From NCBI GenBank assembly GCA_002897115.2, contig BCIH01000001.1, positions 1,059,031 to 1,123,030 of the forward strand: DNA of 64,000 bases, written 5' to 3'. How positions within the stretch are numbered: position 1 is the stretch's first letter; each line of letters opens with the position of its first letter. Below the pieces are notes generated by a model. That model did not search any database and was not told the origin of the DNA. It worked only from the letters and a program-made list of their open reading frames with translations. The translations under genes and the position numbers were made by a program. This stretch comes from Prototheca cutis. Taxonomy: Eukaryota; Chlorophyta; Trebouxiophyceae; Chlorellales; Chlorellaceae. Below are positions 7,743 through 59,082 of the stretch, piece by piece.

Positions 7743-8149
7743 TGGGGGAGTGGTGCTGAACGAGCCGCGGTCTGGGTGCGGGGCAGCAGGACGTGAACTG
7801 GGTTGCCTGGCGCGGTTGTCACCCAGTTGAATCCTTGTCTGCCTCGCAAGGCCTAGGAAACACCAGTGTGCTTGGGGGTGGATGCACCATCTTGACGTGT
7901 AACACATTGCGAAGAGATCTGTGACAAGGTTGCGTTGATGACGGATTCCGCGCCACGCGCCAGCTCCCCCCTCCCGACATCGGAAGCGATCTGGGAAAGG
8001 TTGGGGACACATCATCTCGCGCGACACCGTCGAACACCCGGCGTTGAGCTCAAGTCAAGACGAGTTCCTGTTTGCACATACATAAGCAATCAGGACTGTG
8101 GATGCTGATCCGCGCAGCAGGGCTCTAGCTGAGAGGGGTGTGGGTCCTC
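7743..8149. other. Tandem intergenic region
   Basis: Holds the 3' end of argJ and the upstream region of the hydrolase gene. Nothing else was recognised. Confidence 0.5.
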
Positions 8150-10210
8150 ATGGCGATGGACTGGGACTGGTCCGGATGGGTCCTCAAAATCGCCGGCATG
8201 GTGCGCGGTGGAGCTGGGCCACACCCTGTCGGGCACAATGGGTATCTCTTATGACGTGTGTTAGCTGTAATAACAACCCTCCCCGCTGCCTTGCAGGGGG
8301 CCGGCCTGACACTGGCGTTCCTGGCCGCCTTGGTATACTTTCAGGAGAAGCTGGTCAGTGGGGGTTTGTTGGGTGGTGTCCAGCTCTCCTGCTCATGCAT
8401 GCCCTGAAGTATAGGTGGGTGTTGGTGCATGGAGATGAGGTATCAAGATTGCGAAGCTTTGGACTGCGAGCAGTTCAGGGTCCATGGCGTCCTCCGCCAC
8501 TCGTTGGAGAGTCTGCTGGGGTCTTCAATGCACGCACGAGGCAATCCCCGCTTTAAACCATGCCCAAACAAGCAAACCCCTTATTGCTCACAGATCTACA
8601 TCCCTCGCCTGCCTGGCATGCCCGCGGGCTACGCATTTTACCCCGGCGAATTTGGGCTCGAGCATGAGGACGTCTGGCTCGTCAGCGCAGACGGTGTCCG
8701 CTTGCACGCCTGGTTCATGTGGCTCAAGGATCTCCCCATCGAGGAGCGCCGCCAGCGTCCCACCATTGTGTTTTTCCAGGAAAACGCAGGCAACATGTCC
8801 TACCGGTCAGCGGAACGGGCAAGGGGGTCTTGTCTGATGTGGTTTTGGCGAGTTGAGCTGCACGGAGACATGCGCTCATTTGGCCGCCGGCCCCTGACCC
8901 CCGAATCCTCCCTTCCCCTCCAATCCAAGATCCCAAAGCCCGCGCCCCTCACCCCTCCACAGCCTGCACTTCCTGGGCCCCCTGGCCGACATCCTTGGGG
9001 TGAACGTCTTCGTCCTCGGTTACCGCGGCTACGGTGAGAGCGGCGGCAGTCCCAGCGAGCGTGGTTTCCAAATGGACGCTGAGTTGGCGCTGCGCCACGT
9101 CAGCGCCCGTGCCGACGTCGACCCCGCCAAGATTATCGTCTTTGGAAGGTCCATCGGTGGCGCCGTTGCACTGCATGCCGCCGCGTCCACGTCCGTCAAG
9201 GTCAGTAGTTGTAGCGGTGGTGGTGGTGGTAGGGTTGCTGGGAGGGAGAACTTGGTAGCTAGCGTTGCCGAGCACTCCAGGCTATAACTCAGATCACTCT
9301 CCGCCAAACCGGCAACTGAGAAGGTGGCTGCGCTCGTGGTTGAGAACACGTTCACGTCACTGGAGGACATTGTGCCCCTGAAGATCGGCATCCTGCGACC
9401 CTTTATTGGCAAGGACAGGTATGCGAGCGAGCGAGCGAGGGAGCAGAGTGGGGTGGGTGGCTGGGGCACGAGCGTGCGCGTGGACTGGTGACGGCGACAC
9501 CTGCCCCACCGGGACTGGCACGTCGTCAAGCCTGCCTGCTTGTTGCTCTATCCCCCATCCTCCCATACCCCCCCCCCCCAACACACACACCCCATCCCAC
9601 CCCAGGCCCTGCAACTGGTTGCTCTGGAACAAGTGGGACAACGCTTCTGCAGTCAAGCGGCTGACAGAGACACCCATCCTGTTCTTGTCCTCCCTCAAGG
9701 TCCGGAAGAGAAGGGCATTGTGGGTACTACTGCTCGACTGTGCTGCTTGTAAGGATTTCGTTGGTGTGAGGACTGTCCTTTTTGTTCCAATTTGATGCGA
9801 GTTTGCTGGGTTGATACGCCACCTGAATCAGGCACCAGACATTCCCCATGGACCCCATCGTACATTCTCAGGATGAGATGCTTCCAGCGAGTCAGATGAA
9901 GGAGCTGTACAACGTACACCCCACGCTGCCCTGGCAGCTGGCGACGTTCCCCGACGCCACCCACATGGATGCCTTTTTGGTGGACCAGGACAGGTATTGG
10001 TCCGTGCTGTTCAAGTTCCTGTACGCCGACATCTTCCCAGGGTTGACGCCGCTGCAGCGCGTGCCCCAGCCGGCGCCGCCGCTGCGCAAGGAGGGCTCCT
10101 CGGGTTCTGGCACGAGTTCGCACGACTGGGAGACGGTCGTTCCGCCGCAAGCCGAGCTGGAAGCTGCCGGTGCCGCTGCGGCGACAGCGGAGGAGAAGAC
10201 AGAGTTGTGA
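8150..10210 (+). CDS. Membrane-anchored alpha/beta hydrolase, BEM46/ABHD13/WAV2 family
   Basis: Exons: 8150..8200, 8297..8353, 8594..8805, 8963..9200, 9321..9418, 9606..9699, 9872..10210; about 362 residues. A hydrophobic N-terminal anchor (GAGLTLAFLAALVYF) is split over exons 1-2. It is followed by the family block IVFFQENAGNMSYR, then VFVLGYRGYGESGG. The nucleophile elbow is GRSIGGAVA (Ser nucleophile). VVENTFTSLEDIVPL follows, and FPDATHMDAF supplies the catalytic His. The order of these blocks matches BEM46/WAV2 serine hydrolases, which sit on endomembranes. Substrate is unknown. The exon 5 acceptor may be 9321 or 9324; both keep frame. The C-terminus is a Ser/Pro/Ala-rich tail. Confidence 0.9.
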
Positions 10211-33136: not shown

Positions 33137-33182
<46 letters not shown>

Positions 33183-38518: not shown

Positions 38519-46266
<7,748 letters not shown>

Positions 46267-53201: not shown

Positions 53202-53848
53202 GAGGTTTGTGCAGGTGCCTAAGCGATGCCCATGCCCAGACCAACCGCGTCAAGGCCAGCGTCGTCCCTCAATCATTCGCATGTCATTTCTTAATAGCGT
53301 ATCTTGAAAAAAAGGGGCATGTTGGCTGGGAATGAGGGACATTTTGAGGCCGTCTCGTGATTGCCCCGAGTCCCGAATGAGCATCTGAAAGGGAGGGCGA
53401 ACTGATCTGGGCACCTGAGCCCCCGGGCGCATGGGACATCCGGTCCGGGGCTTGCATGATGCGGCATGCTGCCGTTGATGAGGCAGGAACATCTGGTCAG
53501 ACGTGTGATGCACATGTCAAAGCATAGAAACACACGGGACTGACATCGAAGAGAGTGCCTGCGAGCGTGGCCGTGAGGAAGCGCGCCTGTCCCGGAGACC
53601 GAGCGCCTTGCTCGCCTAGCCAGCCTGCACTGGTCCGACTTGCCTCTTTGGCGCCCTCGTTCTCTTTTGGCGCACTCGACATTCTGCTGGCGAGCCGGCG
53701 TGTTTCCACGAGCCTTGGACCTCGGGCTCCCCCTGCGGCGCACGGCCTTGCCGGCGGCCACTCCTGCCCCCACCCCCCCACCATACTGCGCTTGCTGGGC
53801 GGCGCCCGGCGCCCGTTCCCCGCCAGGCGACTGACTGGGGTCTCCAGA
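53202..53848. other. Divergent upstream region with open transit-like frame
   Basis: Lies between the DHHC start (-) and the first ATG of the CCA-adding enzyme (+). From 53555 (a GTG) to 53848 the plus frame is open and continuous with the enzyme, with basic, Ser/Ala-rich composition. Confidence 0.5.
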
Positions 53849-55742
53849 ATGGCCGCCTCCAGGATGCTGGAGCCCACCGCAGAGGAGCAGGCGCTGTTCG
53901 ACACGCTCGTGGCCGCGGCGGCCGAAGCCGGGTTCCCCACCACGCTGCGCTGCGCAGGGGGCTGGGTCCGCGACAAGCTCCTGGGCAGGGCCTCGGCCGA
54001 CATCGACATCGCGCTGGACGACGCGCTGGGCTCGGCCTTTGCTGCGGCGGTGAACGAGCACCTGGCCGGGCGCGGCGCGGCGACACATACCGTGGCGGTG
54101 ATTGCGGCCAACCCGGCGCAGAGCAAGCACCTCGAGACGGCGCGCGTCCGCGTGCATGGGGTCTGGCTGGACCTAGTCAACCTGCGCAGCGAGAGCTACG
54201 CGTCGGACTCCCGCATCCCCACTGCCCAGTTTGGCACGGCCGAGCAGGACGCCGCGCGCCGGGACTTCACGATCAACGCGCTGTTCTACAACCTGCACAC
54301 GCGGCGTGTGGAGGACTTTACGGGCCATGGGCTAGATGACCTGGAAGGCGGTGTCCTCCGCACACCGCTGGCGCCCCGGCAGACGCTGCTGGACGACCCG
54401 CTACGTGCGCTGCGCGGCGTGCGCTTTGCCGCGCGCCTCGGCTTCCGGCTCGATGACGATCTCATCAAAGCCGCGGCACAGCCGGAGGTCGGTGCCGCGG
54501 TTGGATTTTATCGGTTGTGGAGGACTTTGGGTTTGGGGAATGTGTGTCTATCTCTTTCTTAGTTTGGGACTCGGAATGCATTGTCCATAGTGCTGTTACA
54601 TTGTTGCTTTGCTACCGTGGGTTTTTCTGTGTCTGTTCGGGGTCCACCATTGTCGCTTGGATGGAGTGCATGGCCGCATGAATCTCGTAGCAGCAGCAGC
54701 CACCGTCAGCCTTCTCAGGTCCAACGGATCAGCCAGCCAGCCGATGACAATGCTCGGATCATGCACACCATCACCCAACTCTTCAAGCCTGGGCGGCGGG
54801 TTCATCGATCATGGGCTCTGGCCCCGCGCCGCGGTCGTCGTCGCGCGCGGCGTTGCCGACCTCGGGCACCGCCGGCGCCCGGATGGCGCGATACAGCAAC
54901 AGATATGCCATGTGCCAGTCGCCGCCGCCCGCCAGCGCGAGGACCTCGGCCTCTTCCTTGACCGACATCTCGTCGTCATCAAACAGGACCCACCGCCCAT
55001 CCTGCTGTTTGACCCAGGCGACATAGTGCCCTGAGTCGGCACTGCGCCCCTTGTGCGTCAGCACCCCGGCCAGCTCGTACCGCCCCGTCAGCGGGCCCGG
55101 GGCTGCACCCCCGCCGGCCGCCGCAGCCTCCAGGGCAGCAGCGGATGTGCTGGGCGCGGTACCATGCCTCGGCACATGCACTACGGCCTCGGCGCCGCGG
55201 GAGGCCGCGCCCTCCAGCGCCTTTTCGTGCGCCTCGGCCGCGGGGTTCGGGCCCAGCAGTGCCGCGTCCTCGGCCGCACGCGCCGCCTCGCGCGGGCCAG
55301 CCAGCCGCTCCTGCAGCGCACTGCTGCAAAACTCAAATGTGTCCAGCACCGTAGGGAAACCCACCTGTGTGTGTGGTGTGGTGCATTTTTGAATTTGTTT
55401 TTCCTGGTGAGCAGTGAGTTCAAGACAATGATGTTCAGGTGAGAATACGCTGTTTCCCAGGCAGGGTACCTGGGTACCGCATCGCCGGCGCTGATGGCTG
55501 TGAGTCTGTCAATGAATTCTCAAACCCGAACCCACACACACACAAACGAGATGCACCCATGCACCTTGCGCAGGATCTTGGCTTTCTGCTGCACGTCGGC
55601 CTTGTAGAAGAAACGGACCATCTGGACACAGAGGTATGGTGGCAGCGACTCGATCTCGCTCGAGCCCTCAAACATTGCCAGTCTGCAGAAGGTTTTATTT
55701 GTTTATTCCTTCATTCATGTATTTATTTATCTATCTATTATT

Positions 55743-55813
<71 letters not shown>

Positions 55814-57795
55814 TGTGTGAGGCAGGGGGAGAGAGAGGGCATCGCGTTGGTGTATTTGGAGCGGGCTGTGGAACCCCCTGACTCACACCACGCAACTGAC
55901 CAACCTTCCCAGGATGGGGCTCATGCTTTCGCGGTCCTCCCGCAGTCCTAGGCGCACACCCTCGGCCAGCTGGTTGACGTCGCCCGTGATGTTGCACTTG
56001 AGGCTGTAGGCCAGCCCGTCTTGCCGGGTCTCCTCCCCCGTCTCGCTGCACCGCAGCGTCGCTCCCAGCCGCACGCCAAACAGAGCCTCCACAGGCGAAG
56101 GCACACCGGAAGAGCTGGCCGCAGGAGCCCCGAGCGCGGAACGCAGCGAAAACAGCAGGTTGGTCCAGCACTCTTCCGCATCCTGCTGCATGAAGTAGCC
56201 CTCCCTGCGCGGGTTCGTGGGAGCGGGGTTGCGATTCATGGGTGCGTGTGTTGAGCCAGTGCACAGCCAAGCCCCCAAAACAAAGCAAAAGCCCAAATCC
56301 AGCTGCGCCCGTCCCCACCAAAACAGGAGCCCACCCTTCCCCACCTGGCCTGCTGCGCAAACTGCGGAAACTTCTTGCGCAGGCACAGGAGGAAGGCCAT
56401 GGGCGGGATGGGCTGAGCCGAGGTGGTCAGCGAGGAGAAAAGCTGGCGTGTCGCCGTCGCCAGCGCCACATCCGGGTCGGACCCAGAGCCCGGCGAGGGC
56501 CGAAAGTCCGCCAGCCTGCAAGGTGATCGTGTGTGGGCCGTTCATGGTTGTGTGCGTGTGCGCATGTGGTGGCTGGGCAGGGAGATGCAGGGATGCCTGG
56601 GTCAAATGTCGCTGCACATGGCCAAGTCATCCACACGCTGCGTGACCCCAACCCTTCCCTTCACACAGCACTCACGCGTCCCGCAGCTCCTCGACGGCAT
56701 AGAGGCACTGCAGCGTGCTGTTCATGTAGCACGTGTTGCCCAGGTTCTCCAGACCCGCACCGTACTTGGCCAGACCTGCGCAGTGCGCAGGCATGCATTC
56801 AGTGCGAGGCAAGGGCGGGGGGCGAATTGGGGGAGGTGGAGTCCATGAGCGGGGCATGGCCCACCCTCCCCCAGCGCTTGCGAGCCATGCTCTCCTGCAC
56901 ATGCTCAACAATCCCCGAATCCACCACCGCAAAACAACCGTGCGTCCTCCCCACGCCAGGACCTCACCCGTAGTGTCCTGCTGCTCCATGGGCAGGTCCT
57001 CAAGAAAGGTGGGCGCGGCGGCAGGGGCCTGAGGGGCGGCCGCGGCCGAGCCTAGCATGGTGAGCTTGGAGCCATCACGGATGCCCGTGGGCCCCCAATC
57101 CGCGTCATCCTTGAGCAGGCCCCCCTTGAGACCCAGGATCTTCTGCCGTTCGGGCGGCACGCCCGTCAGGGAGAAGAGCTGGGACTTGAACACCGCCGGA
57201 GGCACGGTGGTGTCCACCTCCACATCCCTGAACACCTCCCTCTGCCACTTCACCTCCACCTTCACCATTGCGGGATAGATGGGAGCGGGAGGCACGGCCG
57301 GACCGGATCGCAGGCCAGGTGTGCAGGATGGCTGTAGGTGGGTGCGAGGCCTGCCAGGCGGTGATCACTCCTGGTCCCGGTCGGGGAAGCACCGCGCGCG
57401 ATGGGGGAAGCGACAACGAGCAAAGAGAAATCAAATCCGACATTGACGATCATGGATGCCCGGACGCCGCAGGTGGAGGCACGGCGGTGCCGCGAGGAAT
57501 ACTTTCTGGTGTCCCACCCTGGATCGCGCCGTACCCGGCTCGCGTGCTGGCCGTGGCCGCGTTTGGAGATCACTAGGCTGGCTGGCAGGGCCAATCCGCC
57601 GTGCCCCAAACCGACGCCCATTCTCAGGCGCCATTCCAGCGCCCACGACCACCCGTCATCAGTCCCAGTTCCACATGCCATCCAACATGCCAGCATGTCC
57701 AACGCGGGCAGCTCACATTGCCTTCAGCATGGGTTGCCCAGCCCAACGGCATCGATAGCAGCCACAGCAGCCGACACTCAGACGGAGCCCCGCCC

Positions 57796-57862
<67 letters not shown>

Positions 57863-59082
57863 CCCACTGTCCCTGAGGTCCCCATCAATAACATGCACCC
57901 ACCCATGCCACTCCGCATTTCCAAACATGCACAGATTGCCGAGGCCCTGGCGCGCAAGGTGAGTCGGGAGCGGGTGGGCGCTGAGCTGGAGGGCATGCTG
58001 ACGGGCCCCGACCCGGTGGCCGCGCTACGCCTGCTGCACCAGCTGGGCCTGCTGCGAGCCGTGTTCCAGGCCGACCTGCCCGAAGGAGTCTGCGTCGACA
58101 GCGCAGCGCTGGCATGGGAAGCCATGCGTGCGGCTGGGGTGAGCGGGGCGTTCTCTTGGGGGCCTGAAGGGGGTCGTGAGGGGGGGTCATTCCTGTGAAG
58201 ACAGCCGCATGCCTTTCCTTGATCAGCAGTCTCCCTCACGTCTGTCCCTCACGGTCCAGTGCCGGTCCCCTCCCCACCCGCCCACTCCCAATACACGCAC
58301 ATCCACAAATCAATCTGCAGTTGGAACTCTCGGACGTTGCCCGCCGCGACATGTTGCTGGCGGCGCTGCTACTGCCCGTCCGAGGGCACGTCGTCCCCGG
58401 GCCCAAGGGCTACGAGGTCGCGCTGGGCCCGCACACCGCGCGCACCGCGCTCAAGTGGCCGTCCAAGGGCGCCGATGCAGTGGGCGCGCTGCACGCCGCC
58501 GCACCGGTACTGCTGGGCCTGCTGGACGAGCTGCGGCACGGCCGTGGAAGTTGCGAGGAAGCTGNGGCCCTTGGTGGGAATGCTGCAGAGTCAGCTACTG
58601 CTGACGATGACACAGCCAAGACAGATGCTGGGCCCAGCACCGCTGGCGCTGGTCCAAATCTGCAGGTGTCGCTTGGCCGCGTGCTGCTGTCGCTGAAGCA
58701 GGGCTGGCGTGAAGGGTGCCTGCTGGCGGCCACGCTCCCGTTTGCTGAGACGAAGCATGTGCGCGGCGGCGCAGCCGGGGAGCACGATGGTGCCGCTGCA
58801 GGTGCCCGGGAAATGTCGTCCTCTTCAGAGTCGACAGCCGCGGTGGTGGAGGGCTACCGCTGTCTGGCCGCGGCGGTGCACGGCTGGAACCTGGAGGGCT
58901 GCTGGGACTGGCGGCCGCCGCTCAACGGCAAGGAGGTCATGGGGCTCCTGGGTGTGGCGGGCAAGGAGGTGGGCGCTGTCATGACAGCCATTGCCGACTG
59001 GCAGCTGGCCCGGCCCGAGGGCACAGCCGAGGAGTGTCGGGCGTGGCTGTTGACNGAGTCACAGTGGAAACGCGATCAATAA
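53849..59082 (+). CDS. CCA1: CCA-adding enzyme (tRNA nucleotidyltransferase), host of a nested gene
   Basis: Adds CCA to tRNA 3' ends. Exons: 53849..54487, 57935..58138, 58321..59082; 534 residues from ATG 53849 (another in-frame ATG at 53864). Class II head: LRCAGGWVRDKLLGRASADI (GGxVRD), then DIALDD supplying metal-binding Asp residues. RRDFTINALFYN and DPLRALRGVRFAARLGF (DxxRxxR template) follow. The neck helix runs from exon 1 (DDDLIKAAAQPE) directly into exon 2 (IAEALARKVSRERVGAELEG), the canonical order, so the 3,447-nt gap between them must be an intron. Exon 3 holds the body and tail. The intron contains the antisense UBP6 gene. The sequence before the ATG looks like a targeting peptide without an ATG. 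Ns at 58565 and 59055. Confidence 0.9.
54783..57268 (-). CDS. UBP6: Ubiquitin-specific protease UBP6/USP14, nested antisense in CCA1 intron
   Basis: Proteasome-associated deubiquitinase. Exons: 57268..56968, 56775..56676, 56515..56345, 56204..55905, 55682..55565, 55364..54783; 523 residues, all phases consistent. An N-terminal ubiquitin-like domain (MVKVEVKWQREVFRDVEVDT ... PPERQKILGLKGG) docks on Rpn1 in this family. Cys box: LENLGNTCYMNSTLQCLYA (catalytic Cys). QQDAEECWTNLLFSL and LPPYLCVQMVRFFYKADVQQ are UBP6 blocks. His box: SADSGHYVAWVKQQDGRWVL, then FDDDEMS with the acid residue. All catalytic residues are present, so it appears functional. The whole gene lies inside the intron 54488..57934 of the plus-strand CCA-adding gene. 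Confidence 0.93.
55749..55818. repeat. (GT)n microsatellite, about 70 nt
   Basis: Lies in UBP6 intron 4 (reads as AC on the UBP6 sense strand) and therefore also in the CCA1 intron. Confidence 0.95.
57797..57861 (+). repeat. Poly(C) tract of 65 nt
   Basis: Uninterrupted C run in the CCA1 intron, about 73 nt before its acceptor and upstream of the UBP6 start on the other strand. Confidence 0.85.

Follow-up and report, generated by a model that had tools for sequence, protein, structure and literature searches.

A UBP6-type gene probably nested antisense in an intron of the CCA-adding enzyme gene of Prototheca cutis, with apparent linkage of the two genes in other chlorophytes

Introduction

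Genes nested in the introns of animal genes mostly lie on the strand opposite to their host, and the parts of a survey drawn on here discuss such arrangements as both an opportunity and a source of interference (PMC8467205). In Auxenochlorella, a near relative of the alga studied here, the portion of the genome description used by us gives a mean intron of 179 bp (PMC12636532). Here, we analyze a stretch of 64,000 nucleotides (nt) from Prototheca cutis (assembly GCA_002897115.2, contig BCIH01000001.1, hereafter the window), in which the sequence argues strongly that a complete gene for a deubiquitinase of the UBP6/USP14 type lies antisense within an intron of the gene for the CCA-adding enzyme (CCA gene). 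While antisense intronic nesting is of a known kind, the new part is the deep linkage of CCA and UBP6 in chlorophytes, which we infer from gene numbers and contig sizes.

The first-pass annotation of this DNA knew of no such pairing, and our full-text searches for the CCA/UBP6 pair, covering open-access literature, likewise found none. The broader literature on nested genes, as represented by titles and the openings of abstracts, held nothing on the pair, and a literature search for Chlamydomonas locus names found none.

Results

The outer gene occupies positions 53849-59082 of the forward strand, and its three exons (Table 1) join into a single open frame of 534 residues. Within its first coding intron (54488-57934), on the opposite strand, lies the entire inner coding span (57268-54783), which comprises six exons encoding 523 residues. 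The CCA exons flanking UBP6 join in phase into one conserved protein. Based on these observations, UBP6 is very probably nested antisense in the CCA intron.

The product of the outer gene carries PolyA_pol (Pfam, 6.3e-30, residues 34-171) and PolyA_pol_RNAbd (3.2e-7, residues 213-257) domains. A class II nucleotidyltransferase head with its DxD motif is present, represented by PolyA_pol and DID at residues 51-53. The alignment with the closest solved relative spans residues 7-525, and the top three among solved relatives bear the names "polynucleotide adenylyltransferase family protein" and tRNA nucleotidyltransferases cca2 and cca1. Judged by its sequence, the protein is a eukaryotic CCA-adding enzyme, predicted to add CCA rather than poly(A).

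The predicted product of the inner gene is a UBP6/USP14-type deubiquitinase. It matches UCH (Pfam, 2.2e-57) and contains the catalytic motifs NTCYMN (from residue 114, C116) and SGHYVAW (from residue 441, H443). An alignment with USP14 covers residues 3-366 and 424-495. The N-terminal ubiquitin-like domain matches the lone USP14 domain 1wgg (1.8e-20), with the Pfam ubiquitin model at 24.0 bits, slightly below its 25.4 cut-off. The protein is collinear with its Auxenochlorella counterpart (P0121), with 352 of 500 aligned residues identical; the search itself gives 65% for the entire query. All five introns are GT-AG, with their own splice sites on the reverse strand. The earlier description of a complete six-exon UBP6 gene with its catalytic residues, antisense in the intron, was thus borne out.

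Of the 3447 nt of the host intron, 2486 are taken up by the coding span of UBP6; another 295 nt lie beyond its 3′ end and 666 nt precede its 5′ end. All other introns of CCA and UBP6, six in number, are 140-222 nt long; the annotated statement that most other introns fall below 550 nt holds for these six, the only ones checked.

To examine the exon joint at 54487/57935, we scored all open in-frame joints up to 60 nt from both edges against a profile built from 13 relatives, excluding the window. This yielded 4789 open in-frame joints, 24 of them GT-AG. The joint at 54487/57935 ranked first among the GT-AG joints with 654.3 bits and 13th of 4789 overall, where the best joint reached 655.7 bits. 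The alignment of the closest solved relative crosses this joint without a gap, and so does P0001, the annotated protein of Auxenochlorella, which was among the 13 profile members (AAAHPE/IASALEQKVSRERVG). A sister sequence (P0025; 86% identity, 41% of the query) tracks exon 1 to AAAQPE and then continues into residues unlike those of the relatives, as expected with the same donor present and the intron unspliced. The claim that the neck helix of the CCA enzyme breaks off at 54487 and continues from 57935 in the same phase therefore stands, and the exon anatomy and joints of both genes are confirmed at the level of sequence.

Taken singly, the two halves of the CCA protein still reach 376 and 260 bits on the CCA profile, as they would if exon 1 and exons 2-3 formed separate transcripts of a two-piece or trans-spliced enzyme with UBP6 merely between them. 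The canonical, in-phase GT-AG edges at the top-scoring GT-AG joint and the continuous protein annotated in Auxenochlorella make this scarcely credible. Chance similarity or a misread frame was likewise rejected by Pfam, the alignments with solved relatives, and the joint scoring.

Three of the nine exons were searched against the genome (19.89 Mb, 23 contigs) for further copies. CCA exon 2 and UBP6 exon 4 matched nothing besides themselves, while CCA exon 1 found one further weak relative on contig 5 (36%, E 1.1e-6). As far as these three exons tell, the genome holds no second strong copy of either gene.

It is also conceivable that a misjoin in the assembly broke up a normal CCA gene, with UBP6 falling between its halves; the 65-nt poly-C run at 57797-57861 would be one possible place, and there are single Ns nearby. 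Another poly-C run in the window spans 33138-33182 (45 nt), and a run of 30 Cs gave 13,180 overlapping matches across the two strands of the genome. Since runs of at least 30 are common genome-wide, we rejected poly-C as a special mark of a misjoin. Moreover, the CCA exons retain their order, strand, and phase, and the two genes carry consecutive numbers in Auxenochlorella, whose assembly is termed telomere-to-telomere in the part of its description available to us (PMC12636532). We therefore regard an assembly artefact as very unlikely. The genome-wide abundance of long poly-C runs is odd in itself.

Table 1 Predicted features of the CCA/UBP6 locus, in positions of the window
Feature	Position	Strand	Remarks
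CCA exon 1	53849..54487	+	catalytic head (GGWVRDK, DID, RRDFTINALFYN) to neck start
Host intron of CCA gene	54488..57934	+	3447 nt, GT-AG, phase 0; first coding intron
CCA exon 2	57935..58138	+	neck, IAEALARKVSRERVG...
Second CCA intron	58139..58320	+	182 nt, GT-AG
CCA exon 3	58321..59082	+	body, tail, stop; single N at 58565 and at 59055
UBP6 exon 1	56968..57268	-	ubiquitin-like domain
UBP6 exon 2	56676..56775	-	GLENLGNTCYMN, catalytic Cys116
UBP6 exon 3	56345..56515	-	
UBP6 exon 4	55905..56204	-	QQDAEECW
UBP6 exon 5	55565..55682	-	
UBP6 exon 6	54783..55364	-	SGHYVAW with His443, FDDDEM, stop
TGTAA, candidate UBP6 poly(A) signal	54600-54596	-	beyond UBP6 stop, ahead of CCA exon 1
Stretch upstream of UBP6 start	57269..57934	.	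666 nt; holds CCA acceptor and 65-nt poly-C run 57797-57861

Linkage of the two genes in relatives was counted by eye from the best 120 matches, using named chlorophytes and streptophytes with both genes in view. Gene numbers, or equal sizes of the contigs carrying both genes, served as a proxy for gene order. Assemblies with a single gene in view, transcript-only sources, and pairs across different assemblies or species were left out. Among the matches listed, CCA and UBP6 appear adjacent or on one contig in five of seven named chlorophytes: Auxenochlorella, Volvox africanus NZ11, Pleodorina starrii, Astrephomene gubernaculifera, and Tetrabaena socialis. None of five streptophytes was linked, judged by contig and among the matches listed, outside of which further paralogues may fall (Closterium sp. 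NIES-68, an SM-named genome that we take to be Spirogloea, Aristolochia californica, Paulownia fortunei, and Typha latifolia).

In Auxenochlorella UTEX 250, CCA is B05770 and UBP6 is A05775. According to the portion of the genome description used, numbers climb in steps of five along the A chromosomes and are common to alleles (PMC12636532), which makes 05770 and 05775 consecutive. The pairs VaNZ11_009809/009810, PLESTB_000830000/000830100, and Agub_g3403/g3404 are also consecutive, and within each of these three pairs the two genes have longest contigs of equal size. In Tetrabaena socialis, both genes lie on a contig sized 385963. Two further contig sizes are common to both genes (32642: P0017 and P0147; 14070: P0243 and P0153) and remained uncounted because they were found through the size equality itself; equal sizes also arise by chance in short contigs (1930: P0063 and P0148). 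Also left out were P0036 and P0146, which have EukProt names of like style and lie on different scaffolds. If they belong to one alga, it would be unlinked, giving five of eight.

The window and Auxenochlorella belong to the Trebouxiophyceae, and the volvocines to the Chlorophyceae. As chance adjacency is very unlikely among several thousand genes, the two genes most likely were paired before these lineages separated. UBP6 is thus most likely an old neighbour of CCA rather than a recent arrival, and the linkage implies that the pair was adjacent before the nest or that the nest itself is old. The first-pass annotation had treated UBP6 as an insertion that synteny in other trebouxiophytes could date. 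The comparison did find the genes consecutive by number in Auxenochlorella; with linkage there and in four volvocines, a datable insertion, or any recent arrival of UBP6 from elsewhere, is disfavoured. A UBP6 search of 27 loci, among them 23 from a scan of viral contigs for CCA relatives, matched only L001, L002, and L004, the window's own locus, and hence holds no synteny information.

Several observations touch the outer gene. An open frame continues upstream of the CCA ATG at 53528-53848 (+), a stretch without an in-frame ATG, and the sister sequence P0025 shows conservation of part of it (PPTILRLLGGARRP and surroundings). The stretch is possibly an upstream CCA exon, or a non-AUG start giving an organelle-targeted form. 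On contig 5 (936235-936477, -) lies a second, divergent nucleotidyltransferase-head gene with 36% identity to part of CCA exon 1 (L003), which may encode a bacterial-type poly(A) polymerase or tRNA nucleotidyltransferase. Furthermore, a contig of 21,845 bases from a viral collection (L010) encodes at 8001-9488 a CCA-enzyme relative that covers most of the query profile (122-636). This contig may stem from a eukaryote or a giant virus, and the stretch of it that was searched contained no UBP6 match. Long GT/CA microsatellites occur at 55749-55810, in UBP6 intron 4, and at 45072-45221.

Discussion

On balance, we consider it probable that CCA and UBP6 form a true nested pair of separate transcription units that arose by local rearrangement of old neighbours. 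The CCA pre-mRNA would be transcribed rightward across UBP6, with the 3447-nt intron removed by ordinary GT-AG splicing. UBP6 would be an independent leftward gene with five short introns, its 5′ untranslated region and promoter presumably located in 57269-57934. Its 3′ end would fall inside the host intron, at the TGTAA listed in Table 1, so that UBP6 could produce an mRNA that stays clear of the CCA exons. TGTAA is the usual poly(A) signal of green algae, and this is the single occurrence in the host intron on either strand. Its absence from the CCA strand is no evidence, given an expected count of merely 0.70. Some transcriptional interference or collision between the two genes is expected.

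As to the route of origin, CCA and UBP6 would already have been adjacent in the common ancestor of the volvocines and the lineage that includes Auxenochlorella and the window. The nest may then have formed by a local rearrangement of the pair, such as tandem duplication followed by complementary loss, a route that keeps the orientation and never interrupts the sole CCA copy.

Some findings weigh against this picture. The host donor reads GTCGGT, whereas three of the six other introns have donors of the GTGAG type (GTGAGG, GTGAGT, and GTGAGC). Chlamydomonas sp. UWO 241 and Haematococcus lacustris (V8C86DRAFT) carry the two genes on different contigs. Finally, four of the five linked cases are volvocine, so that the linked cases represent two lineages.

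The nest itself could instead be ancient, dating from the common ancestor with the volvocines, with the intron lost or the gene relocated in relatives that are not nested. In all four numbered cases (Auxenochlorella, VaNZ11, PLESTB, and Agub) the CCA number directly precedes the UBP6 number, as sorting by start position gives for an outer gene; side by side and with independent orientation, this order would arise by chance once in 16. Plain adjacency fits the same numbering, however. In addition, P0017, whose contig size equals that of the UBP6 sequence P0147, presents CCA as one uninterrupted frame of 514 residues from the MRCAGGW motif onward. If its source calls genes without introns, as we presume, UBP6 does not lie nested at the corresponding site there, which suggests at least one instance of the two genes side by side with no nest at that point. 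We consider an ancient nest unlikely and retain the local rearrangement of old neighbours as our preferred account.

A separate question, compatible with the nest, concerns its use. The first-pass annotation proposed that opposite transcription could couple tRNA maturation with deubiquitination, a proposal that is unsupported. As a regulatory device, CCA transcription would restrain UBP6 or the reverse, tying the supply of tRNA to the load on the proteasome. Antisense long non-coding RNAs (lncRNAs) overlap about 10% of Auxenochlorella genes, and the authors speculate on a regulatory role for them in the part of their report consulted (PMC12636532). Animal surveys, as far as the cited portion extends, treat nesting as opportunity and interference rather than coupling (PMC8467205), and we hold such a device to be decidedly unlikely. 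Similarly, we would give little credence to a long-lived regulatory nest, i.e., a sense-antisense pair, perhaps nested, kept since the volvocine ancestor by mutual transcriptional tuning.

A multi-exon housekeeping gene that lies nested antisense inside another, where the introns of the genome are short, is at odds with nested genes as usually described. Should the neighbourhood indeed be old, the locus would be a clean case for studying how adjacent genes can become nested with neither being broken on the way, and whether green algae preserve gene order for reasons of expression.

Taken individually, the two predicted proteins resemble known ones. The CCA enzyme is collinear with plant and green-algal enzymes over nearly its full length, and the gene differs solely in its long first coding intron and the tenant of that intron. 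The inner protein shares the ubiquitin-like N-terminus, the Cys and His motifs, and full-length collinearity with the proteasome-associated deubiquitinases UBP6/USP14, with no unusual feature seen. The internal antisense lncRNAs of Auxenochlorella, as presented in the portion cited, provide a likeness in antisense transcription within protein genes of a near relative (PMC12636532), whereas the antisense unit in the window is an intact protein gene. Like the antisense intronic nests of animals described in the parts of the survey used here (PMC8467205), the locus appears to carry a whole gene enclosed by one intron of a second, oppositely oriented gene. It differs from them in that the inner gene has six exons, with no second copy of the exon tested, lies in a genome where neighbouring introns measure about 200 nt, and seems to be an old neighbour of its host.

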